Shown here: in pieces, positions 3,225-62,880 of the stretch
How positions within the stretch are numbered: position 1 is the first letter of the stretch
Layout of the letters: every line of letters begins with the position of its first letter
Source of the DNA: Allacma fusca
Lineage: Eukaryota; Arthropoda; Collembola; Symphypleona; Sminthuridae
DNA: 64,000 nucleotides
Direction of reading: 5' to 3'
NCBI GenBank assembly: GCA_947179485.1
Contig: OX359246.1
Coordinates: 3,410,001-3,474,000 of the forward strand
Program-made: the position numbers and the translations under genes
Notes under the pieces: generated by a model
What the model was told of the DNA's origin: nothing
Seen by the model: the letters and a program-made list of their open reading frames with translations, nothing else
The model's database searches: none

Positions 3225-3480
3225 ACTATTTTTGCCAACGCGAATTTTGAAAATCCTTGATCCTTTTTCAGCAGTGATATTTAAAAGCTTAGTGACCTCT
3301 GTGCAGGGAAATGCAGAAATGGTCTTCCATCGTGATTTACAAAAATCCGTCCCCTGCCCTACAGAAAAACGTTTAAGACCCACTTGAATTTCAAGTTACA
3401 CTGTAATTCCATCTTGAATTTGATTTGGCATTTGGCATCGAAGTCGAATTTCAAGTTGTATTTGAGCACAAATTAGAAAC
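3225..3480 (+). repeat. highly conserved ~255 bp block, copy A
   Basis: By eye this block matches 6381-6640 with only about ten differences, while the rest of the duplication has drifted much further. It contains a pyrimidine-rich tract ending TTTTTCAG, which resembles a splice acceptor. The minus-strand frame open in copy B is broken here by a TAG, so protein coding is not supported. Possibly a younger mobile fragment present in both copies, a gene-conversion tract, or a constrained non-coding element. Confidence 0.6.
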
Positions 3481-6380
3481 TTAATACAGACTATTCACAG
3501 GTAAGTAGATCATTTTGCGTTTAAAGAATTCCGTATCTAGGTCATTTTACCTTTAATAAAACATTAAATATCCTAAAATTGCTTTTTACAGACTTTCTCC
3601 TAAGCTGAAAATAATTAAAATTTGAACAAATCAATGAAATCACAACATTTAAATAACAGTAGATTTCTCCATTGTCATTTGGTTTGAATATTTCACCTAC
3701 AAATTTTATTTTTACGGAAACATTTTAATAATTTAATCCTGTAGTTATCTCGAGATAGAACATGCTCACAACTAAACATTTCAAGCAGTGCTTGTCGCAA
3801 ACAAACACGCATGAATGTTTAAATTTATAAATTGTTACTACTGTATTTTGTAGACATGAGTGAATACATAATGCGAAGGGCATGAAAAATTAAAGCACCG
3901 GTTTTCTTAACTGCTTTTAATTCTTCGGACCTCCATACATCTTAAAATTATTTAGACGTGAGGACAATACCGCCGTGCAAGTATACAGTCGCTGTGTTCT
4001 GGAATTACTTTCTGTTGCCCAATTAGTTGTGACCGCAGGTAATAAAAATGACATTTGTTTTTAATTATTTGCATTGAGCCAGGTTGGATGTAAAAATGAA
4101 TATTAAAACTGCGCGCCACGTGCAATGACCGGCAAGGGCACGCCAAATCGCCACCATGGTAACAGCATGAAGCCTGAAATACTAGACTATTACCTAATGC
4201 AATAGGGCTTGCAAAGCATTAGTCATTGTGACTACATAACCCTGCTGTGAATCTAAATACATATACGCTGGCTGTAATAATAATGAAAGATTCCCAGGTC
4301 CATAAAACCCAATTCTTGTGATTGCAGTAACTTTGTTTATACAAAAATGACATACACACTAAACACGGCCAAACGTCAAAGTTATTTACTTGAATGACAT
4401 TTATGCTTCTACGTGCGTAATTAATAAAACACATGGAAGCTGCTTTGTTTTACGCTGAACAAAGCACGTGTAATATTTTTATATTTTGTGGGATGCTCTA
4501 CTGTTGCGTCTAACTTTGTGATCGAAGATATTTCGACTTATGTGTAAGAGGTTCATGAAACATTTAACGTGATTCCTTGCGGTTTTTTATGCTACGTGTA
4601 TAATTATTTAATCAAATCCGAAAAGTTCAAATCAAATCAACGATTCAATCCCAGGTTATTAGAATCTTGATTATGTTCCGACAACTGTAATACACGTGTA
4701 TGTATTTTTCATGCTAGATACATTTGCTCCCATTTATTGTAGATGTTGTGTATTTGTGCTTTGTGTTTACAAATTTAAAATAGGAACTTATGTAGGAAAT
4801 ATGTTTGCATAAATAACGATTTTGAGACCTGAAACTGCTATAACGCTTAACTGCTATTAGATTTTGAACTTTACTCTACTCTCGCTCGTATCAATTTTCC
4901 CTTCTCATAGCCCTCAAATAATTAAACACTGGAGAATGTTCCGATTTTAGAAGAATTTTTTGAGCACACTTTGTCGCTTTTGTCCATTAAACGTTTATAC
5001 ACAGGTGTTCTTATTTGATGCTCCCCAAGCAGTACTGTCAATCGGAACACAAATAAGGTAGGAGTAATAATTGTACCTTTCCTGGTCTTTGACAGGCGGA
5101 TCATGTAATCATACTAACTCGTGTACTTTTTTTTATTTTATGGGATAATTTGCCTGAACTTAACCTTTCGGAACGAAGATAATTCGACGTCTGTCTAGTT
5201 GGGTGTTTATTAAGAAATTGTGGAATGTCAGTCCAGTTTTGATATGACACTTGTATAATTACGCGTTCATGAAACTCCATGCCAAAGTAGAATTTCATAC
5301 CCAGGTGATAAGCATCTTCATTATTATTTTACAGTAACTTTGCTGTAGTTTACATACCTGATTGTCTTTTCCTTGTTACCTGCAGGCGTTTCCAGAAGCA
5401 GCTCTGTATTTATGTGGCTCAAAACTTTAAAATGTGAAACTCTGTAAAAATTATTTCTATCAAATAAGGATTTAAATTTAAGCAAGTTTATTTTTTAAAA
5501 TGTCTTGATGAGTTTTTTTCGCTTCAAAGAAATCGTTTTGTACCTTTCCAAATTAAACATCCACATTTTGAGCGTAGAGTACAGTTTGGAGGGAGTGGAT
5601 CCCGCCCTATTTAAACGAAAATAAGCTTCTACAAAATTTATGTACAGAGAAACAAATTGAAGTTACGTGTTTAAAATATTTGAATATTCCTTTGACGTGT
5701 ATAAACACTCAATGCATTAGGGAAAACGATGCCTTCTTGCGACTTGTATCCACTAAAGTATATGCATTATGAAAGCAAAATGAAAAAGAAAATTCAATGG
5801 GTTTTATACATATAAATTGATATTAATACGCATAATAATAAACTCATTCGGACGCTTGCAATATATACCTTTAGTACGTTTGAGTTAGTATGAATTGAAT
5901 TTGGTGTTTGCACGTACAACAATTCAATAGCAAACGCCAATATTACTAGTATTTAACGACGATGCTGTCGCAAGGGAATATTTGGAACGAGAAATATTGT
6001 TTAGATCCCCGAATTAAAATACCGCAGCAAATTTGAACGTTCATGCTCGCAAAATTGAATCCCATTGAATATTTTTTTCCTGCGAATCATTTTTACAAAA
6101 ATACCCCCTTAGCTCCGCTTAAGTCAATTTGAATTCAAATTACACTTTGAAGTCTTACTTTCGCAAAATTTGACATCAAGGTTGTTATTTGGTTGCAACT
6201 GTTCAAACTCAAACAATACTTAAAACGTTATGCTCCAAATAAATTAATGAGGAGGGGTTTTAATTTTGCTAACAGGAATTTTTGAATTTATTGGCTAGTT
6301 TTACGTAGAATGTGTTATACAGACAAGGGATGTTTAGATTATTTGACCCTATTTGTAAGGGTTTGACGTCTTGTAGTGAA
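3225..6380 (+). repeat. upstream copy (A) of a diverged ~3.16 kb tandem duplication
   Basis: Sequence from 3225 is repeated in the same orientation from 6381. Matching blocks stay in order: 3225-3480 with 6381-6640, 3955-4100 with 7090-7235, 4295-4340 with 7425-7470, 4860-4940 with 7900-7980, 5095-5345 with 8690-8945, and about 5900-5950 with 9310-9365. Copy A has roughly 125 bp near 4680-4805 that copy B lacks. Within the copy, blocks starting CCCAGGT and followed by an 'attagaatctt' or 'gataagcatctt' stretch recur near 4296, 4651 and 5301, so the unit itself looks built from smaller subrepeats. No coding frame is shared with copy B. Confidence 0.75.
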
Positions 6381-6640
6381 ACTATTTTTGCCAACGCGAA
6401 TTTTGAAAATCCTTGATCTTTTTTCAGCAGTGATATTTAAAAGCTTAGTGACCTATGTGCAGGGAAATGCAGAAATGGTCTTCCATCGTGATTTACAAAA
6501 ATCCGTCCCCTGCCGTACAGAAAAACGTTTAAGACCCACTTGAATTTTAAGTTACACTGTAATTCCATCTTGAATTTGGTTTGGCATTTGACATCAAAGT
6601 CAAATTTCAAGTTGTATTTGAGCACAAACTAGAAACTTAA
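6381..6640 (+). repeat. highly conserved ~255 bp block, copy B
   Basis: Near-identical to 3225-3480. On the minus strand a 62-codon frame runs through 6437-6625, but copy A has a stop in the same frame, so I do not call it a gene. Confidence 0.6.
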
Positions 6641-8072
6641 TCCAGACATTCCACGGGCATGTAGATTATTTCTCTTTTAAATAAATCCTTATCTAGGTCA
6701 TTTTGTATATAATAAAAAAAACAAACCCAGAATTTTAAACTCAACTGAAAGCAATTAAATATATTAATATACTATTAATATAATTAATTAATATATCAAT
6801 AAAATATCCCCATATTTAAATATAAGTGGCCTTCTGAATTTTCATTTTTTGAATATCGAACCTACAGTATCTTTTTATGGGAACTTTGGAGTAATTTTAT
6901 CCTAGTTAATATCAAAATAGAATATGATCGTAGCTAAAATAATGAAGCAGTGGTTGTGGAAAACGGACATGCATCAAAGTTTGAAATGATGAATTTTACC
7001 ATGAATAGACATGAGTAAATATCTGATGCGAGGACAAGAAAAGCAATGGTTTTCATAATTGTTTTTAATTACATCTTAGAATTATAAGTTCTTGAGAACA
7101 ATACATCCGTGTAAGTATACAGTCGCTATATTCTAGAATTACTTTCTGTTGCGCAATAAGTTGTGACCGCGGGTAATAAAAATTATTCTTGTTTTTAGTT
7201 ATGTACCATGCGTCAGGTTGGATGTGAAAATGATCACACACGTGCAGTGCCCAGCAAGGTCAAGCCAAATCGAAACAATGGTAGCGAACCTGAAGTACAG
7301 GACTATTACGGTTCGGATGAAATAATGTCCATTCCGTGCAAAGCCTTAGTCATTCGTACGACTATAAAAACTACTGTGAAATCAAATACATATACGCTGC
7401 CAATAATAATTATTATACATTCCCAGGTCAATTAAAATCAACTCTTATAATTGCAGTAGTTTTGTTCATATAAAACTGACATGCACACTAATCAGGCCAA
7501 ACTTCAATGTTGTTTTCTTGAATGGCATTTATGTTTCTACGTGCTTACCTTACCAAACACATGGAAGCCGGTTTTTGTTACGCTGCATGCACCACCTATA
7601 AAACTTTTATATTTGTGGGATGCTATGCTGTTTAGACTAACTTTGTGATTGAAGATAATTTGACTTGGACGTAATTCGCCATTCATTAAAAAGTTTCATG
7701 GAACGATGAATGTGATTCCCGACGGTTTTGATATGCGACGTGTATTATTATCTCACCAAACCCAAAGAGTTCAAATCAAAGCAACAATATATTCCCAGGC
7801 CATTAGAATCTTGATTTGTTTCCTTGTTGTAAGAATGATGTTTGCATAAATAACGATTTTGAGACCTGGAAGTGCTATTGCCTTTAACTGATATTAACTT
7901 ATTTCCTACACTACGCTAGCTCGTATCAATTTTGCGGTTCTCATAGTCTTAAATAATTAAACATTTGACAATGTTTGGATTATACACTAATTTTTTGTGT
8001 GAATTTTGTGGCTATTGTCCATTAAACGTTTATATTCAGTTGTTATTACTTAATGCTCCACAAGCACTTATA

Positions 8073-8627
8073 GCTAGCATAGAGCCGTCATAAAAGACCC
8101 TGGGCTTATAATATATGAAAATCATAAAGAGGGAACCTAAATCATTCCGAGCTGCTCTTAAGAAACCAAAAGGCTTGTTTTCATGACCACCATATGACTT
8201 TAAATACTTCCAAAACCCTACTTTACATTATCTACTCTTATCTTATCCCTCTTGACTAAAGTACTATATACGAAAATGCCGGAACGTTTATGTAACTTAT
8301 GACAAAATACAACACTCCATGTAGTACAATTACACAAGCATTAGCAATAAACTATGGAAATTCAGAAACTGCCTAAACCCGACAGAAGTTTTCCTAGTAT
8401 ATGCATAATATTTAAGATTTAGCTTAAAGTTTCCAATGGTAAACGAATCGAAATACTCAGGTACAGTATTCAGAAGTTCATCATTCCGTTATACTCAAAT
8501 AGTTACGACATTGTTTGTGAACATTAAATTACTTACAGGGCAGTGTCAGTACTAACGCCTGAGCAATGCCCATGACCCTGCAGAGCACACTTCATGAGTA
8601 TGATAATGCGGTCAAAAGGCCTTGCTA
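8073..8627. mobile_element. ~555 bp segment present only in duplication copy B
   Basis: Copy A reads directly from 'gctccccaagcag' (about 5025) into 'caatcggaacacaaataagg' (about 5040). In copy B the equivalent blocks ('gctccacaagcac' and 'caatctgtacacaaataagg') are separated by about 555 bp. That is either an insertion in B or a deletion in A. No long frame, terminal inverted repeat or clear target-site duplication is obvious, so the mobile-element label is only a guess. Confidence 0.35.
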
Positions 8628-9496
8628 TCAATCTGTACACAAATAAGGCCAGAGTAATAACTGTACCTCCCCTGGTCTATAACAGCCGGATCGTGTAATC
8701 CCAATAAATCGTGCGATTATTTTTTATTTGATAATTTGCCGGTTAACATTGTGAACGGAGAGAATTCGATTCTAGTCTAAATGGGCGTTTATTAGGTAAT
8801 TGAGAACAGTCAGATCGGCTTTAAAAAATCACTTGTGTAATTATGCGTTCATCAAACTCGGAAAATCCAAACCAAAATGGGATTTAATTCCCAGGTGATA
8901 AGCATCTTTATTATGTTTTTACAGTAACTTTGCTGCGGTTTATATACGTTATTCTCATTTCCTTGCAAGCTACACGCGTTTTCAGAAGAAGCACTGTAAA
9001 TGTATGTAGCCTACAAAGTTAAAATGCGAAAATCTGTAAAAAGTATTTCTGTCAAATAAGTATTTAAATTTAATAAAATACATTCTTTACAATTATCTTA
9101 TACGGGGGGAAACAAAACATCGTCTGAGGACAAAGTACATAAGTATTTAAAAAACTTCATAATTCAATTGAGCAATAATTATACAAACAATTGTGCAAAA
9201 ATTACTAAACATTGATAATGTTGAAGATTTTAATCAATTAGTTGATAGTTAATTGACATTAATACAAATAATAATAAACTTAAAAATAAAATATAGCTAT
9301 GTACGTCAATTGAGTTTGGTGTTTGCACACAAAACTTTAAAAAAAAACAAACGCCAATGTTACTTGTTGTTCGATCGCCATATCTTGAAATTATTCAGCT
9401 CACATTCGAATAAATATGTGTAAAGAAATCTTTTTTATCCAAGTGCGTCATACGTTTATTTTAAACAATGCACGTGTGCATACCTTATATTAGAAA

Positions 9497-9631: not shown

Positions 9632-9639
9632 TATATAAA
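9632..9639 (+). promoter_or_regulatory. TATA box of the terpene synthase gene
   Basis: TATATAAA, followed by an initiator-like gCAGTat with its A at 9663, about 31 bp downstream. That is the usual spacing for metazoan TATA-to-start. The downstream gene starts at 9872, giving a predicted 209-nt leader if unspliced. Placement is inferred from motif and spacing only. Confidence 0.55.
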
Positions 9640-9660: not shown

Positions 9661-9666
9661 GCAGTA
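9661..9666 (+). promoter_or_regulatory. initiator-like site, predicted transcription start
   Basis: The core CAGT (9662-9665) fits the arthropod Inr core loosely. Its support is the distance to the TATA box at 9632. Confidence 0.4.
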
Positions 9667-9703: not shown

Positions 9704-9871
9704 CACTTCTATTGCGTATAGTTTTGCACAATATTATCCATTTATAATTTTTTGTATACAATATCGTTTAATTGAAGACTGTTTCTACTTCAAATCGCCA
9801 ATAATCATCTTAGTAAATCCTTTAATCAAATTATTATTTTAATACTGTCACTTGAGAAACATATCAGAAAT

Positions 9872-11053
9872 ATGAATATACATGACAATATTAAGGTGTT
9901 AAACATTCAAGGTTCCGTCAAATTGCGTGATACTAAAGAAAAGTTTATTGCCGGTAATCTTACATTTTGCTGGCCATATAAGTGGGAGTCTGATTTGAGT
10001 GTTTGGCAGACACTGGTTGATAACGTGGTAGACAATGTTATCAATTATGTGAACCAACGCTTAAATGTCAACGATACTTCGCGTCTGATTTCACTAATCG
10101 AGGATGCAACGTGGATGGCAATCTTTACCATATCCGAGTCTTGGAGAAAGGTTGCACTGGATAACGACCTCATATTTCGTAAGATAGTTTTATACGTAGT
10201 TCATTTCTACATGTTGTACGTATTGGACGACGTCGCCGAAAAAATGGTGGGACACGAAGGCCACGCCAGCTTTGTAAAAACGTGTGGACGGCTTCTCCAA
10301 AAGATCTACATGTTGGAATTCCCAAATATAAATGCTCTGAAGGAGCATCCTTACACACAAAGTCTTAGCGTATCCCCGAATTTCAATGAAAAATACGTTA
10401 TTGTATTTTTTGACGTAGTCGAAGATCTGAAAACGTTAGTTTATGTCACGCCTGCAACCATGAAATATTTGGCAAGCTCTATGAGGTATGTTTTTGAACT
10501 ACAGACATGGTACGGAAGTGAAAAATGTTCGCACCTCTTGGACTCAAGTCTTCGTCACGATTTACGAAGCTATGTAATCGGATATGATGTACTAGTCGAG
10601 TTTGTTCTCGTGGTGTACGAAATCCAAGCAAGTTCAAAGGTCAGGGAAAGTTTTTACTGGGACAGGCTCTACAGATCCGGAAGGAAGTTGGGATACCTAT
10701 TGAACGATATATTCAGCATTAGAAAGGAACTGCAAGAATTCCTAATAGACGGAAAACGCATTGACAATGGAATCCTTCTTGGAATGGAAACAGACAACCT
10801 GACATTTGAAGAATCGCTTCAAATTCAACTGAACCATCATAATGCATTGGTTCTCCAGTTTCGTATGGAGTGTCAAGGTGCATTAACGGAAGATGATGTA
10901 ACCTTTGACATGGACGATAATGACAGGGGAATATTTATTCAGTCGTTGGACTGTTTAACTACGATGCTGTCACATCTGATTCAAACTCATCTTAAGATGG
11001 AGCGCTACAAAACAGATGTCACTTGCAGGTTCAAACACTACTGCGCAAAGTGA
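9872..11053 (+). CDS. class I terpene synthase, microbial-type, single exon
   Basis: The 393-residue product should ionise a prenyl diphosphate with Mg2+ and cyclise or rearrange the carbocation; substrate (C10, C15 or C20) and product cannot be read off. Hallmarks visible: the aspartate-rich DDVAE at 119-123 at the end of a hydrophobic helix (VLYVVHFYMLYVLDD); the second metal site N278-D279-xx-S282-xxx-E286 in NDIFSIRKE; Arg232 exactly 46 residues before N278, the known position of the pyrophosphate-sensor Arg, with Gly237 after it; and R378-Y379 near the C-terminus, the RY pair of microbial-type enzymes. After the second motif, NGILLGM and LTFEESLQ fit the family helix. An acidic stretch (TEDDVTFDMDDND, 339-351) lengthens the NSE-to-RY gap to 100 residues. 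No plant-type N-terminal domain. The frame has no intron. The start is the first in-frame ATG after a TGA at 9773. Isoprenyl diphosphate synthases are unlikely because their two DDxxD motifs are missing. Confidence 0.9.
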   Translation: MNIHDNIKVLNIQGSVKLRDTKEKFIAGNLTFCWPYKWESDLSVWQTLVDNVVDNVINYVNQRLNVNDTSRLISLIEDATWMAIFTISESWRKVALDNDLIFRKIVLYVVHFYMLYVLDDVAEKMVGHEGHASFVKTCGRLLQKIYMLEFPNINALKEHPYTQSLSVSPNFNEKYVIVFFDVVEDLKTLVYVTPATMKYLASSMRYVFELQTWYGSEKCSHLLDSSLRHDLRSYVIGYDVLVEFVLVVYEIQASSKVRESFYWDRLYRSGRKLGYLLNDIFSIRKELQEFLIDGKRIDNGILLGMETDNLTFEESLQIQLNHHNALVLQFRMECQGALTEDDVTFDMDDNDRGIFIQSLDCLTTMLSHLIQTHLKMERYKTDVTCRFKHYCAK

Positions 11054-11307: not shown

Positions 11308-11313
11308 AATAAA
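11308..11313 (+). terminator. poly(A) signal AATAAA of the terpene synthase gene
   Basis: First canonical AATAAA after the stop codon, 255 bases downstream of it. It would give a 3' UTR of about 270-290 nt. Assigned by position only. Confidence 0.45.
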
Positions 11314-12118: not shown

Positions 12119-12317
12119 TAGTGCGCCCAGTGTTTCGTTTCTGAAACTAAAATTTCCTTTTCGTTTCAGTTTGTTCCACAAAAATTCATCGAGCAAACTG
12201 AAACGAACTGAAAAATTTTTTTGTGAACTGAAACGAAACCACAAATTCGGTTCATTTCAGAGTTCAAACCTAAACGAAACAAATTTTTTGATACGAACTG
12301 AAACAGTGGGCGCACTA
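12119..12317. mobile_element. inverted-repeat MITE, hAT-like
   Basis: The left end TAGTGCGCCCAGTGTTTC is the reverse complement of the right end GAAACAGTGGGCGCACTA with one mismatch. The interior is also partly self-complementary, with repeated GAAACGAAC/GTTTCGTTT words. GTTGAAAT occurs at 12111-12118 directly before the left end and again at 12320-12327 after the right end, with two extra bases (TA) between. This looks like an 8-bp target-site duplication, as made by hAT elements. No transposase is encoded. Open frames on both strands here are by-products of the symmetry. Confidence 0.75.
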
Positions 12318-13836: not shown

Positions 13837-15789
13837 CGTCCCATTCTCCACCTTTTTAAGCTTTCCAAGATGGACTGGACCCCGTCTCGTTAATAGCTTC
13901 GCGTGTGCCTGGACAATCCCATTGTAAAATCCCATAGTGAGCCGGGCTAGGGACGAGGCAATAAAATTATTTCCCCTGTCCACACGTTGTCAAAGGCCCT
14001 TGTACACTCACTTTGCGTTGTAAACCATGTCTATTTTACATGCACGCAGGGTTGGACAAATTCCCTGCAAAATTCCTCTCAATCTTTTTAGAAGTGTTTT
14101 AGTGTTTTGCCGAACCAGAAAACAATTTCCTGGTCACCTGCCCCAATGTTTTTGAAAATCCATAACAAAATTTCCTCACTTAAAATATTTACCCTAAAAT
14201 TTGCGGACCTGTAAAATTTTTAAAGTTTCAACAATTATAAAATTAGGATAGGAAAATTTGACTGAAATTGCACTAAAATTGGTGTAATCAAAAATTTCTG
14301 GAAATTTATTTTTAAATCAGTTTTTTGAGTTGTGTTGGATATGTTTTTAGAAAACTTCAATGGGAAACTTGTTAAAATTATGGGATTTATATGAAAATTT
14401 GATTGACCGTAAAAATTTGGAAGGGCTGAAAACATAAATATTTCCTGAATGTTTTCAGGTGTCATGAGGTGTTTTTTTAAAAATATTTCGAATTTTTTCC
14501 AACCCAGTTGAAAATGAACAGCTTAGCAAATATTAGCTCAGTCAAGGGTGGCAAGTGAGCTCAAGATCGCTAGAACACAATCAATATTGAGATCGTGTAC
14601 ACAAATTTACATGCAATTGTGCTGTTAAGAAAACAAAAATGGGCGGGGCTTGTTCCGGCTTTAGGAATTATTCCCAAAATAAAAGTGACAGGAAGGATAA
14701 ATCTGTCTTATTGTTAATTGAGGACCCCCGAATTATTAATAAAGTGTCACACGTCGTTATAGAATTTAGTCTGAAATTTCCGAATTATTCCTGTTCTCTA
14801 AACCAAAAACATATTTTCACATTGCGGGTTCATTTATTTCCTACGGAACAAAATTTTACACTTATACTGTAAAAGTAGTTTAATGTCAAAATATTTTGAA
14901 ACTTACGCAAAGAATTTCTTCTACATTTTTTTCAAAATTCTGCAAATGTTTAAATAATTTTTAAGGTCATAAATGTTTGGCAGAAATTTGAACGTGAGAA
15001 TATAATTCTCGGGAATCTGCTTTCTTGGAAATTTAGACAATATTGGGTGCAAAAAAGTTTGGCATAAAATTTGCCTTTCCTAATTTTGTAAATGAACATG
15101 TGAAAGTTGAATTCAGAAGCAGTATTGAATTGGTTTCCGTGTTTCAAAAATCCAGGTTTTGTTTTTAAATTTTCAAAATTTTGAATTTGAAGGAAAATTT
15201 TTAGAAAGTAGTTACATTTTGTCGGGGATGTTTTTAAAAATTGTCCTGAAAATTTTCGTATATTTGCAGATTCAAAAATCCCTAGGTGCGTAAGTAGAAT
15301 CTAGTTTTTGAGATTCAATGTAGGGATTTATTTTGTGTTCCGTAAAATTTTAAGCATTTCCAAAGGCGTAAAATCCCTTGGGCGCCGTTCAATTACGGAA
15401 ACAAAAGCTGGATTTCCTTGTCTGTGGAGAGTGGGAAGAAATCCGAGGGAAAAAAGGAGTAACATTTTTTTCTTAGACACTTACACTTAGTGCTGTATTA
15501 TAGTTGCAGCTTTGTTGCTTTTATTGAGATATTCTGTTGCAACAGAAAATTTGAATGCATTCAACAAAAACAACAACAATAACAACATTGCAATTGAAAA
15601 CAATAACTTAACTAAATGCGGTTCACTGTTAGGACTCAAAATCAGTTCCGGTTTGGATACTAGTTGAAGTTTGAGACAAGTTTCAAATTCGAATGAAATT
15701 CAAGTTTTCATTCAGTATCAAATTTAGTTAAAAGTTGAAACTTCAATGAAGATACGTTTCGAAAAATTAAGACTATATAGAAAATACAG
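13837..15789. other. intergenic, degenerate AAAATTTT-rich sequence
   Basis: No exon-like stretch. Open frames are short and of low complexity. GACACC/GTGTCA and similar words are scattered without pattern. Confidence 0.55.
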
Positions 15790-16430
15790 ATTGTTCAAGT
15801 TGGATTCGGGGTTCAAATTGCAATCCAAGTTCAAGTTTGAATCGACATTCAAGTTAAAATCGACGTTCTAGTTTTAATTCAGGTTTAAGTTTCAATCCAG
15901 ATTCAAGTTTGAATCGAGGTTTAAGTTTCAACCCAAATTCAAGTTTGAATCGAGGTTTAAGTTTGAATCGAGGTTTAAGTTTCAATACAGATTCAAGTTT
16001 GAATCGAGGTTTAAGTTTCAACCCAAATTCAAGTTTGAACCGAGGTTTAAGTTTCAATCCAGATTCAAGTTTGAATCGAGGTTCTAGTTTACATCCAGGC
16101 TCAAGTTTACATCCGGATTTAAGTTTCAATCGAAGTTCAATTTTTACTCTAAGTTCAAGTTTGAATCTAGGTTCAAGTTTGAATCGTTGTTCTAGTTTGA
16201 ATCTAGGTTCAAGTTTAAATTGTAGTTCTAGTTTGAGTCAAAGTGTAAGTTTAAATCTAAATTTAATTTTTAATGAAAATATAATTTTGAATCAAAGTTT
16301 AAGTTGGAATCGAGGTTCAAGTTTGATTTGAAGGTCAAGTACGAATCGAAGTTGAAGTTTCAAGCAAAGTTGAAGTTTCAATCAAAGTTGAAGTTTTAAT
16401 CGATGTTGTAGTATGAGTCAAAGCTATACA
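15790..16430 (+). repeat. 18-bp degenerate tandem array
   Basis: The core unit AAGTTTGAATCGAGGTTT and variants (AAGTTTCAACCCAAATTC) repeat over about 640 bp. The period is a multiple of three and the unit lacks stops, so long frames appear on both strands (SLNRGL repeats on plus, KLEPRF/KLKPRF repeats on minus). These are repeat artefacts unless expression is shown. Confidence 0.9.
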
Positions 16431-16710
16431 ACTGCAACTGCAACACAAATAGCCCAAACAACAAAATTGAATTAAAACAACATAATAAAAAACAAAGCAG
16501 GTTTTGTGAATCGCACACAACTGCAACAAAACTAACAAAAAATTCCAGCACTACTTCGACTGCAACAGAAACGAACTGGGCGGGATGAAATACTCCAATT
16601 TTATAGCCTCATAATTCAATCTTTGAATGATCTTCTCTCTCATTTCCCTCTCCCTCCACTCACTCACTCTCTCCCAGCTCCTCTGTGTTAAGTCAATGGG
16701 AATGTTTTTT
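16431..16710. other. intergenic with pyrimidine-rich stretch
   Basis: Contains a CTCTC/CTCCA-rich stretch near 16632-16685. No gene seen. Confidence 0.5.
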
Positions 16711-28600: not shown

Positions 28601-29560
28601 GACATAAGTGAACTGAAATGTCAAATTTTATGACAATTTTGTCGGTTAGGAACATTTTCCGGGAAATTCAAACAAATTGAGTGGGGTAAGTAGAATATAA
28701 GTCAAATATTTTTGTTGGTTTGTTTAGCCCTCATTTGTAGAGGCCAACAAGTCTGGAGAAGGGTATTTTTAGACATGCAAATAGTTTTGGGAGAGTTCAA
28801 GTATTCTGTGAAAATTGTGCTCACCGTAATTATGCCCGCGTCCAGACGAGCTCTCCGGAGACGGTTTATAAACTGTCAAATCGATTGTTAATTTATTTGC
28901 GTTTATATTCTGCCCATAACAGATTATGTCATTTTGAGGGGATTACGGGCAGATGTGCAGCTGCTGTGAAAACCAATTGTATTTGCATTAAATTTAAAGG
29001 ATAATCGACGGTCCCCCACTCGTTGGGAAATTTATTTTCTATAATTCCCATATCAATAAAATAGGTAAACATATTTTACGGCTTTCAAAATTCAGGCGCA
29101 CGGTTTAGTCTAATATAATCTTTGGAAACAGCATTTTATTACGATTGACGTAATGAGTGCCGTGTTCAAAATAAAAGTTAAAGTTGTAAACGGCCGTGCA
29201 ATAAAAAGCATTACCAAAATTTATACGGGATATTTTATATCAAATTTACGAGCCCGCAAATTTATAAAAAATCTTTCCTACCACTTTGCGAGAAACGTAT
29301 TGCCACAAAATATTACTCTAAATTAACACCCCAAATGTTACCCTAAATGTTGTTCTCAAAATTTATCATAAAATGTTGCTACACAGTTTAATCATTAACC
29401 GTTGTCAAAAATTTTACTTAAAACCTTAATCTTAAATCCAGCTTTAAATCGCAACCTAAAGTTTGAAATTAAACTTTTATACGTTATTTGGTCACAAATT
29501 TACTACGAAATTTTGCTATACAAAACGTTTACCATAAAAATTGTACCACAAATTTTTACC
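25646..29560. other. intergenic, nothing recognised
   Basis: Includes GC-richer patches near 25960-26260 and 26900-27200 with no coherent coding frame, splice pairing or repeat. Confidence 0.5.
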
Positions 29561-30085
29561 TTCAAAATCTTATCCCGAAAATTGTATCCCGAAAATCTTA
29601 CCACAATAATTTTACCTGAAAAATTTCCCTATGAATATTTACCACAAAAATTTATTCGCAGAATTTCAACACAAAATTGCTACCCCCTAAATTTTACCCC
29701 CAAAATGTTACCCACAGAATTTCACCACAAAAATGATACCCCCAAAATGTTACCCACGAAATTTTTCACCAAAATGTTATCACAAAAATTTTACCCGAAA
29801 GTTTTACCACAAAAATTTTACCCGAAAGTTTTACCACAAAAATTTTACCCGAAAGTTTTACCACAAAAATTTTATCACACCAATTTTACCACACAAATTT
29901 TACTCCCAAGATTTTACAACACAAATTTTACTCATAAAAATTTACCACACAAATTTTACTCATAAAATTTTACCACGCAAATTTTACTCCCAAAATTTTA
30001 CCACTCAAATTTTACTCCCAAAATTTTACCACACAAATTTTACCACGAAAATGTTATCACAAAAATTGTACTACGAACTGTAACC
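29561..30085 (+). repeat. 27-bp tandem array grading into ACCACAAATTTT variants
   Basis: The core at about 29770-29870 repeats a 27-bp unit joining TTTTACCACAAAAATTTTAC and CCGAAAG. Its flanks are degenerate copies (ACCACACAAATTTTACTC). The resulting 187- and 116-codon plus-strand frames (KFYPKVLPQ repeats) are artefacts of a period divisible by three. Confidence 0.9.
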
Positions 30086-33000
30086 CTAAAATTTTATCCA
30101 AACATTTTGCATGAAGGTGTTAATAACCAGTAAAATGTTTATCCGTAATGAATATTTCAGCGAAGTTTTAAATTGTTTTGAAATTTACTTTGGAAAATGA
30201 GACGAAACAATTTATTTCTTCGAAATATGGGTCCTAAAACCGGCGAACAAATGTTTCCCTTAAAATATTTAACCATGAATTCGAAAACGTTTGTGTGCTC
30301 TAAGCAAAAAACGGACTAATTACCACAGTTTTTACACCAATTGCAAGCAATTTTCGCCAAAATACGCCGAAAATTTCCCCGAAGGACTAAACCGGGATTC
30401 CACGGCTCATAAATATTGGCGCCGTTTTAATTACAGTACTTTTTTAATAGTGTTTTGTTTTGAAATGGATCTCACTGGTTGGAGCAGTATTTTCGTTAAT
30501 AACAGTAATATCTTGCAAAATTACAAGCCGTCTGTCTGTCCCTTGCTGGAGAAAATTTGATTGAGTTGTAGGTTTATGGGAATTTATAATAAATGGACGT
30601 AACCCGTAATAACTATAAGCCCGAAAAACTGTGTGTGAGCTGGAGGTTGTGTGTGAGAAAGCGGGGGAAAAGCGCTCACCTTGAATATTAAATCAAGAGA
30701 AAATCCATAAATTCCGGTCTATATGTTTCCCTCCGTCCCAAGCAAATATACAATTAGGGTTATGTACACAATTGTAGTCTGACTTGCGTTTTGGGGAATA
30801 AAGAAGTCATGCCGGGGCATATACAGTCACGGGAATGTCAAGTTCCAGCAAAAAATTTCCCTCCGTCCGTTTCCCTCCTGCCACGCTCCTCAAACCTTTC
30901 CCATTAAAACATCCTGCATATAGAAGGCTCATTTGGCAAAATTATTTATCAGCTTTTCCCCCCTGCCCCGGCGCCGTCACAATCCTTCCAGTTACTATTT
31001 TCTTTTTCCTTCCATTTCCTTTTATTTTCTGACCCGGAATTTCTTCAAATTCCAGAAAATTTACACCCCATAAATGCTTCTCCTTCTGTTTCCTCGCCAT
31101 AAAAATTTATATCAAGGAACAAATTCCAGGTAAAAAATTCCACCCAAATTTTTGTAAACAAATTTCAGATATTTTTGCCCAAAATGTTTGCATTGATACG
31201 TCCATATTTTATAAATCTGCAAGTTAGCGGTTGAAAACATTCAGGCTCAAATAATTATTTTTCAAATCTAAATTGTGCAGACCCACAATAAACACCCACC
31301 TAAAAAGACCAGGTACATTAAATTAGGCGCTTGAAATAAATTTGACCAAATTTAATAAAATACCATATTAGGCCGAATTTTGCCAAATGTTTTAAAAAAT
31401 ACAAACGATATTATAAGAGGAAACGATGCAGGTAAAAACATTTGGGGCGTTCGAAAATTGTATCAAAATTTAGGGGCGAAAAAATTAAAAACTTTAGAGT
31501 GAATATTTTGTCCACTAAAATTGTGGAAAATTTTTCAGCAATTTATTAAATTTTTTAAGACAATTCTAAATAAAATTTGCTGACAATTTTGTTGACAATA
31601 TCTGGGCAAATATGCTTTTCGAAAACGCTTAAATTTTACATGAAAATTAAGAAAAAGTCACGAAATGTTTTGGAAAATTCATTAGAGAACGCTGAAATTT
31701 GATTCGAATTAGAACGCCGATAAAAATTTATGGTTTTAAAAGGGGAAAATTTGAATGGCGCCAAAGGGGCATCCCGCCTAAATTTTTTTCATCCGTAGAA
31801 AATGATCCGCTAAGTGGAGAGGACCTTATTTGGGAAATTGCATTTAGTTGGGACAGTAGTAGAAAAGGGGAACCCGAAATCCGGAAAATCAGAGTTCCCT
31901 TGAGAGACGCAGCCGACGTATTGGGATCGGGTTGGCTTCGTTAAAATAAAATCTTGGCGTCTCTTTTTCCTCATCTGATTTCATTTAATATCAGATTTTC
32001 TCTTTGCATTTTCTCCCAGAAGCCCTTAATTTGATCCGCTTCCAGGGAGACGCACATGAAAAAAAAACCAAATGTACTTATTCCTGACGTCCTCCGGTTA
32101 ACCATTATGTGCATGCGTAAAATCATAAATTTTACGTAAAATTTTATGCAGGGAAATCTCGTTACCAGGAACGTATTTTTCTTACGCGTCCATTTCCAAA
32201 GCTTAGGAAACTTCCCACAAGCTAATGTTTTCACGTGGCAGAAGAATTACAGTGTATTGAGCTGCTGTCCAGGTTTTTACGCATGTTTCCACTTATGCGT
32301 GTATATACGTATTATGCATACGGAACTAACTCCATATGTCGAAACATACGGAATTTCGTACGTGCTTTCAGGTTTCAAAGGGGTAAAATGAGTATAGGCG
32401 TAATTACTCGAGTATGTGTTTCGTACTGTATGGAAAATGTATATTTACGGGTATGTTTCAGTTTGGGAGTTGAGGGGCATGTAGGCCAGGTAGGAAATTA
32501 AGCGTGTGCCAAGGAAATGAGTTAAAGGAAGATTTCTCGGGACTTGTGACTCTCTCGGATTTGAACTAGTCTTGCGGAGAAATGGAATGCCATAAGGAGC
32601 CTTGTAATTGGCTTCGTCTCTGACGGACCCACGTCTTCCCAGTTATTGATGGCAAAGGAGCATATATGCAATGCATTAAGCATTTGTCATTTATGAAATC
32701 TCCACCCTATCCTTGAACTCCTCATGCGGGCGGAGTGAACTGTGGCTCAAAATCCATGCATGAACAGGGTGCTCTTAAAATTCAGAGGAACAAATTTTGA
32801 ATTTGCATTAAATTTTCCTGAAATTAGGCAAAAAAGTAGATTTTACTTAAATTTTGCAATTATTGTTGTTAAAATTTTCCGAAAATTTTTTGGGAAAAAT
32901 TTTGTAGCCCAAAATTTTAACAGGAAGAAAAGCTTGTAACCCAAATTTCATTGGGAAAAACTATTTAAACCGAAATACCCACAGAGGAAAATATTTTGAC

Positions 33001-34149: not shown

Positions 34150-34660
34150 AAGTCCGGGCTTACGCTAATTCAGAGCTTGGTTCGAGTCACGTCGATCAGT
34201 TTCCGAACCCTCGGATTTTCAAGTTGAGGTTCACTCTGAGGTCAAGTTGGTCCCAGATTTATCGTCTTTGAGCTTTTGAATTCTCAGGATTTACCGCTTT
34301 AAAAATCCGACCTGACACTGACCTTAAAAAGTTTGACCTGAATTTTTTGGTCTGGATTTGTAATCTTACTTGACCTTAAATGGCGGCTAAGTTGACCTTG
34401 GTGTTGGACGGAGATGACCTTTAGTGTAGTAGGACGTTGTTTGAAGTGGTTTGACCGAATTGACCTTATTTGTGAATAAGTTTGACCATAATGGTATGCT
34501 TGACTTCGAAATTTCTGCTTTCGACACCGTGGCGATTACACTTGACCGCGTTTCTATTACACTTGGCCAAGTATTTGTTCAAATTGACCCGTGACGTTTC
34601 CACTTGACCTCGCTTTTTATACTTGAGTTATCATTTTCTCTGCTTGAACTTGAAAATCTT
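34150..34660 (-). repeat. loose cluster of TTGACC/AGGTCA half-site words
   Basis: Irregularly spaced TTGACC and TGACCT words (AGGTCA on the minus strand), for example in 'cttgaccttaaatgg' and 'agttgaccttgg'. No fixed period is visible, so this may be a decayed repeat related to the AGGTCA arrays elsewhere. Confidence 0.5.
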
Positions 34661-34691
34661 TATTTCACCTTCAATCATATTTGCTAGACTC

Positions 34692-35108
34692 CTTGACTCT
34701 ACTCCACTTGACGCTGTGAATACCTCACTTGACTCCTTGTCCACTCCACTTGGCTCAGTGCCTACTCCACCTGACTCAGTATATATTTCACATGACTCAG
34801 TACCTGCTCCGCTTGACTCAGTGTCTACTCCACTTGACTCAGTGTCTACTCCACTTGACTCAGTATGTACTCCACGTGACTAAGTATCTACTCCACTTGA
34901 CTAAGTATCTACTCCACTTGACTCAGCATCTACTCCACTTGACTCAGTATCTACTCCACTTGACTCAGTATCTACTCCACTTGACTCAGTATCTCCTTCA
35001 CTTGACTCAGTATCTACTCCACTTGACTCAGTATCTACTCCACTTGACTCAGTATCTACTCCACTTGACTCAGTATCTACTCCACTTGACTCAGTATGTA
35101 CTTCACTT
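34692..35108 (+). repeat. 21-bp tandem array carrying TGACTCA (AP-1-like) in most units
   Basis: Unit CCACTTGACTCAGTATCTAC plus T, about 20 copies. At least 14 exact TGACTCA words are present; a few units carry TGACTAA or GGCTCA. The 21-bp period is near two helical turns, so sites would fall on the same DNA face. Frames on both strands (LHLTQYL repeats plus, SSGVDTE repeats minus) follow from 21 being divisible by three and are not evidence of a protein. Regulatory function is unproven. Confidence 0.9.
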
Positions 35109-38100
35109 AACGCCTTTGAATTCTCGACTTGACGCCTTATACTCTCCACTTGACCTCGCATGTTCTGTACCCGCTATTTTCTCCAACGAAAGATTCTGGC
35201 TCGAGTGGCCTTGAAATTCTAAATGCATAACTTGAACTTGAACGGATCTCGAGTAGGGAGCTTGCCATTTGAGACTACGATATGACATATACGAAATTAA
35301 ACATAAGCTGAATGAAGGGTCTTTCAACAAACTCACGTCTTCCTACTCACTCTCTCTTTCGCTCCAGGAATTTCCTTTAATCTCATTTCAAAGTTGACTT
35401 AACAATGCCTTAAAAGTCACAGGTACATTAGAATATTAGCGTTCCCAGGCTTTCAATCTATTCCCAAGCAGAGCGGCCTCTACCTTTGAATTTCCAGATA
35501 TACCCCAATCTGGTGCATGTATACATCTTTATAAAGGGAAAGTTAAACCTCTTAACCTCTACTGTCTGAAATTTCTCGTGAGACCCAAGCCTATAGCGTT
35601 TCAGTATTTGATGCATGTTTTTTAGTTACAGGGCGAAAGGAAGAGCGTTTTCTTATTCTTTCAGTCTCTCAGGCCAAAACACAATTAGCCTCGTAATTTC
35701 TTCGTCCTCTTTAAATATTTAGTGGTCATGGACCTTCGTAAAACAAAGCCTGGGGCTGGGAGTCTCCCGAGTTAATCTAACCCGCATTCGGGCTAATTCA
35801 ATAAAGCACGCGTCAGTGGTGGCTCCCATGAATTTTTTACCTGGGAAAATTTCCTAGAAAAATTAACCTCTTAGGAAATTTCCGCGGACTTCAAACACAT
35901 ATATAAATCTGGGTTTGAATATTGGGTTTGGGGAACGCTAGTGTCTAAAAATAGGGACGTTTTCATTCAAAAATTTTAATAAACGTTTTTCTAAAAATAC
36001 GGGCAATTTGGTTTAAAATTTTAACAAAATTTGGCGCAAAAATGTGGTCAACTTTTTTACAAATTCTGAGAAAATTTTGATAATAAAATTATTGAGAATA
36101 TAGATTTTATCAAATTTTGGTAAATTTGTATGTCACAGTTTACCAAAAATTTAATTGAAATATATTGTCGAAATTAGTAAATAATTCAAAAAATATTTCA
36201 AAAATATTTCAAATCAAATTAGGGGCATTTAGATTCAAAGTATCAAGACATTTGTTGCCAAAATACGGAGATTTTGTCTCAAACGTTTGACAGAATTCGT
36301 GTTTTTGGATAAAAATTTTGAGCTGATGAAACGTTGCTAAAAATTTTGCAAAATCAAAATTCCAAAGTTTACCTAAAATTTATTATTTTTTTTTTCAAAT
36401 TTTATGATTTTTTTTTTCAAATTTTGATGCGCAATTTTAAAAAATTAGGGTACAAAAATCTTAGAATACTTGATAGAATGGGCAAATTAAGTGCAGTATG
36501 TTGGTCTATTAGGGCTAAAATTTTACACCAATTTGGGTTAAAAAATATGGAAACCTGGAAAATTTGGATTCCTGCATATTTTGTTGTAAAAACTAGAAAA
36601 CAATTGAAAACACAATATGTACATGAAAGACGTATGTACGATGTATTTTGCAAAAAGAAGTTTTAAAAACATTATAAAAAATTTGAAACTAAAATTCCGG
36701 TTAAATTTCGATATAAATTTAGAAAAAGCATGGCAAAATAAAAAAGTTGTTTTTAAATATGAGCGAAACCATTTTAAAAATTGGCTTTAAATTATTTCTT
36801 AAAAAATACTGGAAAAATTGATGATGAGCCAATTTTCCAAAAAGGATATGTCCACATATTTTTATACACATAAAAGATACATTTAGGGTTTAATATTAAA
36901 ATTGAATTTATCTAAGTACATGTGTTTACAGTAGGAATGGTTATTCATGGGAAAGAGTGGAATGGATATCTGTATGGTGTGTTAAGCCAAGTCCAATTGG
37001 GCTTGTTTGGGTTGACATAGTCCTCTGGCTCCGTGCTCGGCGTTCCAGGTGAATAAATAGGTAAATACCTGAGGCCAGGAAGCTCCATTCCAAATTCAGG
37101 GGAATGAATTTAGAGCTCAAGAGCACACGCACACAAAGCACTCCTTCCTTTGAGTCCATGTATACGGAGACCAATACCTACAAATTACATTCAAATACAT
37201 AGGGGAAATTCTGACGTGCTCTCGTATTCAAAACTCTCTCCGTCTCCTTCCAAATACAGAGTCAGATTTCTACCAGGGCTGGAAAAATTTACGCAAAAAA
37301 AAACATTCAAAAATGTTCAATTCAAAAAAAAAATTTACGCGTAAAATTTTTGCCCATAAAATTTTGTCCTCAATTTTGGTTTCGTTGAAATTCTTGTCGA
37401 AAAAATCAGAAAATTTTAACGATTAACTTTCTTAAAAATTTCGAAAATTTGGGATATTTTTAGGGAATTTGTGTGTTTATTTTGTATATTTTACGGGATT
37501 TTTCCGACGAAAGCTTGAGTAGGATGTTTTAAAAATTTAGTCGTAAAAGTACCCGTTTGGATGCATATTTTGAGAAATTTTGATTAAATAAAAAATTTGG
37601 GCTAATTGTCGAAAAAATGAAAATTGTTCGGAATTTGATTGATAATTTTTTTAACCTGAAATATTTTTTTTTAATATGGGCAAATTTTAAGGAGAAATTT
37701 TGTTAGGTTAAATTTTCCCAGCCCAGTTCCTGGACTATGTATTTTGCGTACGTATGGAAAAGCGTGGTTTTAGTGAAACTCTCTTTGACCACTTTTCTCG
37801 CTCTCTTGCAGCTCGCTCCTTGATCATGCATTTGTTTGTGAGGTTGAGGAAAAGCTGGGAGTCTTCTTTTCGTGCGTCCTTTCTAAAGCGGAAAATCCTT
37901 TCGCTTACTGAATAATAAACCCTATTTGCCCATAAACTCCGGCATTGAATTTCCCTTTATTATTATGTACACGTACACACATACGTATGCAGAGACGTTC
38001 AATATCCCGATGCAAAATTCAGGCTTGACCCTAATTTTTTCAACCGGGAAAAATGAGATTGTAGAAGCCGTTTTCACCCATTCGGGCCACATTCCTGGAT

Positions 38101-45955: not shown

Positions 45956-47280
45956 TTTGAAAAATTCCAAAATTGTGTTCAAACTTTGAAACGTACCAAA
46001 AGTTTTCTTCAAAATTTAATGAGAAACCAACTTAATATATAAAAATTTGAATATACCCGAAATATTATTTACAAGTTTTAAGACACCCAAAACTGTCGTT
46101 AAGCATTTGCACCAAATAAAATAATTATTGGGGTTTTAGTCCAAGGAAAATTGTTGTTAGAAATTGAATGGCAGTAATTTTGTAAAACATTTATGGGTAT
46201 TTCTTATTAAAATTTAAGGGCTGTAAAACTCTTGCAAATTTAAAGTGTCAAAAACATTTCGGATAATATATGAGGGAAAGATAATTTTTCCTAAAATTTA
46301 AGGGAATGGCAAATTTTGGAAAATTTAAAGGCAGCTAGCAAAAACTGATGGAAAAACTTTACGAGTGCAATTATCTTGCTAAAAATTACGGACTGTTAAT
46401 ACTTTTATTGAAATTCAATGTTTGCAATAAAATCAAACCACCGTTTTTAAATCGTACAAATTCCAAAAAATGAAATATTTTTTGCACAGAAAAAAATTTC
46501 TCTATGGAAATGCAAAGGCGGTTGGGTTGATATGCGAGAACAGACTGGGAGTAGTGAAGAGACTGAAATTATTTTGAGGTTCTTAAATGCTGCAAATGAT
46601 ATGGCTAAGCCAGGTTCAAATATTCTGCGGTAAATTCAAAAGCGATGTTTGAGGAAGTAAAGCTACTATACATAGGTGGGATAAGAGAAGTGTGCATATG
46701 ATTCCATTCCTTGGGTACTCAAAACCTCATGAAGCTTGGTGTTTGTCGTTGGAGTACGAGCGTGGTTAACGCGTAGTTTTAAAAGGCACTTGACTCTCGA
46801 GAACCTCTTAGCCTTTCCTTTTCTCACTCCAAATATCTCCGTACACTGCCTTCACTAAAATCTTAAGGAGTCGCGCGGCAGTGTTTCGTTCGGGCTAATG
46901 TCATTTATGAAGAATAAATGGCCGGTCAATAATAATTTCACTCTCACATTGTGCATATTTCAAGTTGGAGACGTTTTTGAATTCAAAAGTTTGCATATGG
47001 CATTTAGAGATCTTAATAGTAATCTAGTATTGTCCGGGTTGAGGTCAAGGTCAAATTGTTCAAGAACAAGTCTGCATAAAACCTAGGTCAGGGTCTCAGT
47101 TTATGTAGTATGAATTTGGCCCGAATTTTAATGCATGAATTAAATTCAGGTTATTTAAAATAAGATCGCACAATATTTCAGATCTGATTTCCTGGAGTAA
47201 GGTCAAACAATTCTGATTTCTTGTACTAAGATCACACATTAAATAAATTCGAGTCACATGGAATAAGGTCAATCATTTAA
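45956..47280. other. intergenic, nothing recognised
   Basis: AT-rich. AGGTCA words start to appear at about 47040, leading into the array that follows. Confidence 0.5.
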
Positions 47281-48011
47281 GTCACAAGGTCAAATAATAA
47301 TCCAGTTCTGGTCGAACCTCATATAATAATCTAGCTATGTTCAAATCTCATATAATAATCCACTTTTTTGTCAAAGGTCAAATAAAAATCTAGTTCTGGT
47401 CAAAATTCAAATAAAAATCTAGTTCTGGTCAAAAGTCAAATAATAATTCGGGTTGGATCGAAGGTCAAATAACAATGCAGGTCTAGTTAAAGATCAAATA
47501 ACAGTCAAGTTCAGGTTAAAGGTCAAATAACATTCTAGTTCTGGTTAAAGGTCAAATAACATTCTAGTTCTGATTAAAGGTCAAATAACATTCTAGTTCT
47601 GGTCAAAGGTCAAATAACATACTAGTTCTGGTCAAAGGTCAAATAACAGACTAGTTCTGGTCAAAGGTCAAATAACATACTAGTTCTGGTCAAAGGTCAA
47701 ATAACATACTAGTTCTGGTCAAAGGTCAAATAACAGACTAGTTCTGGTCAAAGGTCAAATAACAGAGTAGTTCTGGCCAAAGGTCTTATAACATCTTAGT
47801 TCAGGTCAAAGGTCATATAACTTCCTAGTTCTGGTCAAGGGTCAAATAACATCCTAGTTCACGTCAAAGGTCAAAGAACATTAAAGTTCAGGTCAATGGA
47901 CAAATAACATCCTAGTTGTGGTCAAAGGTCAAATAACACCCTAGTTCTGGTCAAAGTTCAAATACCATCTTAGTTCTGGCCAAAGGTCAAATAACCGCTA
48001 AGTTCAGGTCA
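47281..48011 (+). repeat. 30-bp tandem array with DR1-type GGTCAAAGGTCA in its units
   Basis: The unit joins CTAGTTCTGGTCAAAGGTC and AAATAACATAC, about 20-24 copies, degenerate at the left end. Eight units carry exact GGTCAAAGGTCA. Two hexamers separated by one base (TGGTCA-A-AGGTCA, once a perfect AGGTCA-A-AGGTCA) make a direct repeat of spacing 1, the arrangement bound by HNF4- and RXR-type nuclear receptors. The array ends about 3.3 kb upstream of the exon at 51292. Binding is inference. Confidence 0.9.
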
Positions 48012-51291: not shown

Positions 51292-52210
51292 ATGAGCAAC
51301 TACTCAACGCTTCCTTATGGGAACAATGTTGGGGTGACCCCGCCCCCTCGTGAGCGCCACCACTCAACCAGTTCAAATAATTCCGCCTATGGGACAATCA
51401 CCAAGGCCACAAGTGGGCGCCTCAATTACCTGGCCAACAACTACGACTCCGGCGTCTCTACTTGCGCCTACGAGGAAGACCCTGAATGGGCTTACCCGCC
51501 CAGGAACCTCATTTTGGCAAATAACCTCCATCAAAATTCAAACTCACCCGCCCCCTCCGACCACGGAACCTTCACTTCCAGCGTGTCCCTCAACCACTCA
51601 AATATCCCGCCCCATGCTATCTACGTCCAAAATACCAACACCGTTGCCATATCCCGCCAAAGCCCCTACAACAACGGGAGTCTCCTCCGACGAAGTCCGA
51701 ACCCCTCCGCCCAATACGTGACCCAGTCAAATTTGCAGCAAAATGTGGTAAAACAATTACAGGAAAAATTCAGTGGGGATGTGGTGCTCAATAATGCGGG
51801 TGAAATTAACAACGTCCCAAATATCCTCTCAGGGGATGTGGAGTTGACCTTAAATGACCAGGCCTCGCTGACGCGCCGGCTTAAAAACGATAATAATGTT
51901 TTAGGGGGCCAAAATAATTTTTCCGTGCCGGATAATAATGGGGGGTTTAGCCCTTTGAGCATGGACCCCCCCGGATTGGGCTACAACAATTCCGGCAAAA
52001 GTGATTCAAATCTTTATGGCGTGAGTGGACAGTTGCGGGAGGGGCGGAGTGTGAATTTTGGGGACAATTTGGACAATGACGCGGACAGTCGGGGCGGGAC
52101 TTATTTGAAATCCGCCTGGATTCACTGTCGTCTTCCACTCCTTATTTTGATCGTTGTGGTGCTCCTCGTCCTTTTTCTATCCTTTTCGGGGGCTCTCATC
52201 TACTTCAAAT
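51292..52210 (+). CDS. first coding exon of a probable type II single-pass membrane protein
   Basis: The exon encodes 306 codons plus one base and ends at a strong donor (AAAT|GTAAGT). It is markedly richer in G and C than its surroundings, as expected for selected coding sequence. The ATG lies one codon after an in-frame TGA (51286). Residues 1-275 are polar and low in predicted structure: rich in Asn, Ser and Pro, with a TPPPRER stretch near 16-22 and WAYPPRN at 66-72. One hydrophobic helix spans about 281-303 (LPLLILIVVVLLVLF...), with no signal peptide, so the N-terminus is probably cytoplasmic. A long cytoplasmic N-terminus followed by one helix near residue 300 matches teneurins, but no EGF, NHL or YD repeats are in view. 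Other type II receptors or proteases are possible. Reading through the donor would add only an AT-rich tail to 52353, best explained as intron. Confidence 0.75.
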
Positions 52211-62730: not shown

Positions 62731-62880
62731 CTTAAATGCAATAAATTTACCCAAAATGCAATAAATTTACCCAAAATGTAATAAATTTACCCAAAATGTA
62801 ATAAATTTACCCAAAATGCAATAAATTTACCCAAAATATAATAAATTTACCCAAAACACAATAAATTTATACGAATTGCA
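62731..62880 (+). repeat. 20-bp tandem array, ~7 copies
   Basis: Unit AATAAATTTACCCAAAATGC with variation at the last three bases (TGC, TGT, TAT, CAC). Recent slippage. Confidence 0.9.

Follow-up and report, generated by a model that had tools for sequence, protein, structure and literature searches.

A divergent gene for a microbial-type class I terpene synthase in the genome of a eukaryote that is probably an animal

The DNA analyzed here is a single stretch of 64,000 nucleotides, which we refer to as the window. On its forward strand, positions 9872 to 11053 hold an intronless coding frame of 393 codons that reads without interruption and encodes a 393-residue protein (P0001), identified as a class I terpene synthase from the reading of the frame, a Pfam match, and the stop-free run. 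An in-frame stop lies upstream at position 9773, and 9872 is the first in-frame ATG. The stop-free run at the gene spans 425 codons, whereas the longest runs in 100 windows simulated with a first-order Markov model averaged 153 codons and reached at most 267, which rules out a chance frame. The G+C content of the frame is 40%, that of the window is 34%, and that of a probable exon at 51292 to 52203, described below, is 51%. A second copy of the synthase was sought in the window by tblastn and rejected, since the next match (E = 0.85) lies on the opposite strand inside the gene itself.

Signals of the kind expected around a eukaryotic gene flank this frame. A TATA-box-like TATATAAA was found by pattern matching on the forward strand at 9632 to 9639, 240 bases before the ATG, and an initiator-like CAGT, read from the sequence, lies on the same strand at 9662 to 9665, with its A at 9663, 31 bases past the start of the TATA-like box. 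The full pentamer TCAGT is absent at this site; the CAGT may be an initiator of the arthropod type. On the other side of the gene, an AATAAA resembling a polyadenylation signal occurs on the forward strand at 11308 to 11313, 255 bases past the stop; both it and the TATA-like box are consensus matches only. With its TATA-like box, CAGT, intronless frame, and AATAAA, the locus has the appearance of a whole gene of eukaryotic type. Between 9300 and 11500, bacterial promoter-like sites occurred at the level of shuffled sequence, and the count of terminator-like hairpins (0, versus a mean of 1.3 in shuffles) was uninformative.

The neighboring DNA is repetitive. A tandem duplication of ~3-kb blocks (3225 to 5950 and 6381 to 9367), in which no gene was identified, lies upstream of the gene, and the blocks share 75 to 79% identity, with 93% over the first 300 bases. 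The last matching block stops 505 bases short of the gene, and the other unit carries no synthase copy. Self-comparison also revealed an imperfect inverted repeat at 12132 to 12234, ~1.1 kb past the stop (71% identity over 104 columns).

The family of the protein was assigned by homology. In a Pfam search, which the sequence-only reading had proposed as a check on its claim, residues 175 to 325 (10394 to 10846, forward strand) matched positions 51 to 195 of the 199-position profile PF19086 (Terpene_syn_C_2; Terpene synthase family 2, C-terminal metal binding) with an E value of 3e-8 and 34.1 bits, above the gathering cut-off of 23.7. This was the sole family listed at a limit of E ≤ 10, a limit at which the search filters nonetheless drop most matches above about 0.1; within the same bounds, no isoprenyl diphosphate synthase family was listed for the protein. 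Five bacterial relatives scored 87 to 163 bits on PF19086, versus 34 for the protein. The single NCBIfam match (E = 3.7e-5, 22.5 bits) was to a model that covers 735 positions of a bacterial terpene cyclase and whose cut-off of 1200 is far above this score.

The cleanest evidence came from a direct BLASTP comparison with L028, a cyanobacterial two-domain terpene cyclase, because it is free of any multiple alignment. Residues 230 to 380 of the protein aligned with L028 over 151 columns at 22% identity (38.1 bits, E = 6e-7 for this one comparison only), with Arg232, NDIFS..KE, and RYK in register, and tblastn gave a similar result. When 386 genomes from the phylum to which G001 belongs (G001 being the genome that carries the Calothrix locus L025) were searched with the protein, 24 contained a match at E ≤ 1, mostly weak. 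The three best matches (E = 7.2e-4, 0.0043, and 0.0099) fell in open reading frames that are 757, 775, and 775 residues long. The frame holding the first of these (L033) and the similar frame from another genome (L028) both exceeded the cut-off of NF041168, a two-domain terpene cyclase model, and we presume that both are geosmin-type enzymes.

Profile searches pointed the same way, though less strongly. A profile built from 7 diverse bacterial terpene synthases gave the protein 17.5 bits, versus 7.9 for the best of 2000 shuffles; a profile of 18 cyanobacterial rows gave 14.5 bits, versus 10.2 for the best shuffle, a weaker separation of ~4 bits. No match at E ≤ 10 was obtained with the protein by phmmer against PDB or by tblastn against 72,556 plasmid records. 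A search of genome contigs and viral contigs with P0001, by a method that detects close relatives only, gave nothing useful, nor did three scans of viral contigs with bacterial terpene synthases. PHROGs returned two weak matches (E = 0.018 and 0.03), both without a known function.

Four landmarks of class I terpene synthases were located in the protein, all at the residues given for them by the sequence-only reading. DDVAE, the candidate first (aspartate-rich) metal motif, read from the sequence, occupies residues 119 to 123 (10226 to 10240), although its alignment varies with the rows used. Arg232 (10565 to 10567), at the pyrophosphate-sensor position, was recognized from the alignments, its spacing, and the pairwise comparison. 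The NSE metal motif, NDIFSIRKE, spans residues 278 to 286 (10703 to 10729) and was found in alignments A4 and A5 and opposite NDIFSYQKE in the pairwise comparison. An RY pair occupies residues 378 and 379 (11003 to 11008), as seen in alignments A1, A4, and A5 and in the pairwise match of ERYK with DRYK. All four lie on the forward strand. Arg232 and the NSE residues N278, D279, S282, and E286 are invariant in A4 and A5, and RY is invariant in A1, A4, and A5.

The claim that these landmarks also stand in the canonical order and spacing held in part. Their order is as claimed, and the distance of 46 residues from Arg232 to the NSE motif is exact, being the same in 22 of 23 bacterial rows and 45 in the other. 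In contrast, the other two distances are mostly longer than in the bacterial rows: DD to NSE is 159 residues in the protein, compared with 135 to 143 in 22 of 23 rows (and 159 in one), and NSE to RY is 100 residues, compared with 82 to 93 (n = 23). These counts cover the 23 rows with complete motifs among the 25 bacterial rows of A1 and A5; L004 and L005 stand outside them, as their motif set was not recognized by the pattern used.

Taken alone, the landmark motifs are weak evidence, and the homology is stronger. A DDxx[DE] motif arose in 1,231 of 20,000 shuffles of residues 1 to 174, and an RY pair arose in 2,307 of 20,000 shuffles of residues 326 to 393. Such frequencies lend something to the idea that the protein is a terpene synthase of the insect style, with an isoprenyl diphosphate synthase as its ancestor, or else another helical protein in which the motifs occur by coincidence. 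The second motif, however, is of the NSE type rather than DDxxD, Pfam listed no isoprenyl diphosphate synthase family, and both PF19086 (E = 3e-8) and the BLASTP comparison (E = 6e-7) connect the protein to terpene synthases. We consider this explanation extremely improbable, and we rejected derivation from an isoprenyl diphosphate synthase, which is close to refuted by the Pfam result. The assignment of the protein to the class I terpene synthases of the PF19086 type is thus well supported at the sequence level, and the earlier description of it as a canonical class I terpene synthase is upheld by PF19086, the four motifs, the pairwise homology across R232, NSE, and RY, and the lack of a listed isoprenyl diphosphate synthase family.

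DDVAE lies outside both the Pfam-matched and the BLASTP-matched stretches, and MAFFT aligned it with the DD motif of the bacteria in only 26 of 60 random subsets of rows. It falls on that motif in alignments A1, A3, and A5 and off it in A4, which contains all 19 cyanobacterial rows. A5 is an 18-row cyanobacterial subset without L023 that was picked after the 60 random subsets because D119 aligns in it, so the placement of D119 in it does not count as independent evidence. DDVAE is the obvious candidate for the role of first metal site, as yet unproven. One further row, L027, was taken out after A3, as it is a phage-type repressor rather than a terpene synthase; L027 601 to 1062 carries HTH_3 and Peptidase_S24 and was a false match obtained when relatives of a cyanobacterial terpene synthase were sought.

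Structure prediction gave a model compatible with this family. AlphaFold without an alignment produced an unusable model (pLDDT of 37.7), while the prediction based on A5 was mostly helical and of low confidence (mean pLDDT of 58.1, pTM of 0.56), with 10-residue block means of 62 to 84 over residues 231 to 370 and lower values elsewhere for the most part. When the A5 model was searched with Foldseek, the best 50 of 228 matches with E ≤ 0.001 were all class I terpene synthases or cyclases, and the best among those listed was the fungal enzyme BcBOT2 (E = 3.3e-7; TM score of 0.70 by target and 0.61 by query). Since the model was built on terpene synthase rows picked for the alignment of D119, the match is partly circular, and it suggests consistency with class I terpene synthases rather than providing an independent test.

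If the protein works by the established class I mechanism, DDVAE and NDxxSxxxE would coordinate three Mg2+ ions, with Arg232 and the RY pair serving to bind and sense the diphosphate. The enzyme would then enclose its substrate, a prenyl diphosphate, in a helical pocket; farnesyl diphosphate would be our guess. Removal of the diphosphate would leave a carbocation to be cyclized or quenched, yielding a terpene hydrocarbon or alcohol, and a role for such a product as a scent or defense compound is plausible. Alternatively, the protein could derive from a terpene synthase and have lost turnover or taken on another role, or the gene could be on its way out. The high divergence of the protein (13 to 20% identity to the bacterial rows) and its mostly longer inter-motif stretches would fit such a history, but decay would be expected to strike one of the four motifs, and their key residues are intact in a frame that is open over all 393 codons. 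We regard this alternative as distinctly unlikely.

We also examined what else the window contains. It holds two convincing coding stretches, which make up about 2.1 of 64 kb, and 49 rows of tandem repeats, some of them overlapping; no tRNA genes were found in it by ARAGORN, and no Rfam matches were found at the gathering score. Long tandem repeats occur at 15704 to 16489, 29506 to 30090, 34635 to 35174, 47278 to 48069, and 62665 to 62984, with units of 18, 14, 21, 29, and 20 bases, respectively, and several of the listed open reading frames consist of such repeats and are not genes. The probable exon at 51292 to 52203 (forward strand, 304 codons) lies ~40 kb from the gene and encodes a polar N-terminal part followed by a hydrophobic stretch, after which comes a GTAAGT donor; its stop-free run of 354 codons exceeds the simulated maximum of 267. 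It is probably a first exon and resembles that of a type II membrane protein. It matched no Pfam family at E ≤ 0.05, and its best phmmer match in PDB reached only E = 0.7; a teneurin-like membrane protein, which we had considered, was dropped for lack of Pfam or PDB support.

A Pfam scan of 142 stop-free frames of the window revealed no convincing domain; it covered this exon together with 141 out of 247 frames of at least 58 residues that passed a repeat filter. Ten frames were also put through a separate Pfam search, with the same outcome. A biosynthetic cluster was likewise rejected, since the nine families that matched at E ≤ 0.05 did so in one frame each, with a best E value of 0.0075, which is about what chance would give over 142 scans. 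A UbiA-like match (E = 0.0081) was among the nine and was given no weight. A codon-usage scan returned three weaker matches, of which two are tandem repeat and the third is antisense within the exon; since the scan was trained on both of the stretches that it ranked highest, it shows only that little else in the window resembles them.

A bacterial contig was rejected, as the sequence-only reading had maintained; gene density, the repeats, the probable spliced exon, and the eukaryote-type gene signals agree with it on this point. Because the DNA is repeat rich and gene poor and contains a probable spliced exon together with eukaryote-type signals, we conclude that the gene sits in a eukaryotic chromosome. 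The earlier interpretation was thus supported in part: the class I terpene synthase gene and the nonbacterial contig stood, while an animal host is what both the sequence-only reading and we infer from the general character of the DNA, the Pfam and PDB searches having identified no other gene in the window. On these grounds, the host is most likely an animal, and the CAGT hints at an arthropod but does no more than that.

A real terpene synthase could also lie in the DNA of a nonanimal eukaryote (a fungus, an amoeba, an alga, or another protist), in which such genes are ordinary. In keeping with this, neither the Pfam scan of 142 frames nor the PDB search with the exon named a window gene as animal. 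Set against it are the very low gene density, the abundance of tandem repeats, the long exon with a hydrophobic end and a GTAAGT donor, and the TATA-like box and CAGT ahead of the gene, all of which suit a large animal genome better than they suit most fungi or amoebae, with none being decisive. A nonanimal source thus appears rather improbable.

Taken together, these results indicate that the frame is a real and intact gene for a divergent class I terpene synthase and that it belongs to a eukaryote, probably an animal. The explanation that we favor, at a probability of roughly 0.8, is that the gene is intact, seemingly complete, and part of the nuclear genome of a eukaryote (an animal being the most likely host), and that its product is a class I terpene synthase with one domain, of the PF19086 type found in microbes; such a gene would have been acquired through horizontal transfer. 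If the host is an animal, it would probably be able to produce a terpene on its own instead of obtaining one from food or symbionts, and the gene would provide an extra case for telling one ancient gain with many losses apart from repeated transfers. Should the host belong to a group already known to carry such genes (mites, gnats, octocorals, sponges, or springtails), the finding would add a gene to a published kind; its significance would extend further only if the host fell outside the animal groups known as carriers. A host from an animal lineage beyond these carriers, with a gene that came from a separate transfer of its own and gives that lineage home-made terpenes, is unlikely.

Springtails are said to be among the arthropods with canonical terpene synthases described by Chen and colleagues in 2024. 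The main text of PMC13342648 mentions neither terpenes nor springtails or Collembola. In PMC6275457 (2018), the enzymes of Folsomia candida are said to resemble the flea-beetle type, which is derived from isoprenyl diphosphate synthases, and this speaks against a springtail parallel; the Folsomia genome paper (PMC5490193) mentions two terpene-related clusters. The sequence-only reading had held that animals mostly lack this family, with octocorals, springtails, and oribatid mites among the exceptions. This is right but incomplete, as trombidid mites, sponges, and fungus gnats are exceptions as well. Insects, like other animals, are described in PMC13143122 (2026) as generally lacking classical terpene synthases save for a rare gain by transfer.

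Among known systems, the bacterial class I terpene synthases of PF19086 (the NF041168 type, pentalenene synthase, and the selinadiene type) share with the protein their family, their motifs and the order of these, and the spacing from Arg to NSE, and they likewise have a single catalytic domain and a similar length. The protein differs from them in its identity of 13 to 20% to the aligned rows, its lower PF19086 score (34 bits versus 87 to 163), its mostly longer DD-NSE and NSE-RY distances, and its eukaryotic host genome. Closer in setting are the trombidid mites Leptotrombidium deliense and Dinothrombium tinctorium, for which PMC6275457 describes microbial-type terpene synthases that are encoded in an arthropod nuclear genome, as may be the case here, and that are at most 30% identical to their nearest microbial counterparts. 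The mite genes form large families of 39, 21, and 17 members, in contrast with the one copy in the window, and we liken the two by description. According to PMC12051294, which cites Chen 2024, fungus gnats of the genus Bradysia carry five genes for terpene synthases, and these are thought to be mite derived. The canonical arthropod terpene synthases of that study (Chen et al. 2024, PNAS, as cited in PMC12051294, PMC13389597, and PMC13143122) are not derived from isoprenyl diphosphate synthases and are reported to have been gained by gene transfer, a description that the present gene may fit. Octocorals have monophyletic class I terpene cyclases, and those of sponges (Wilson 2023) are cited as distinct, according to PMC12685057; both are class I enzymes encoded by animal genomes, and here too the likeness to our protein is one of description. 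Canonical terpene synthases of animals have thus already been published, and the present gene most likely adds one more.
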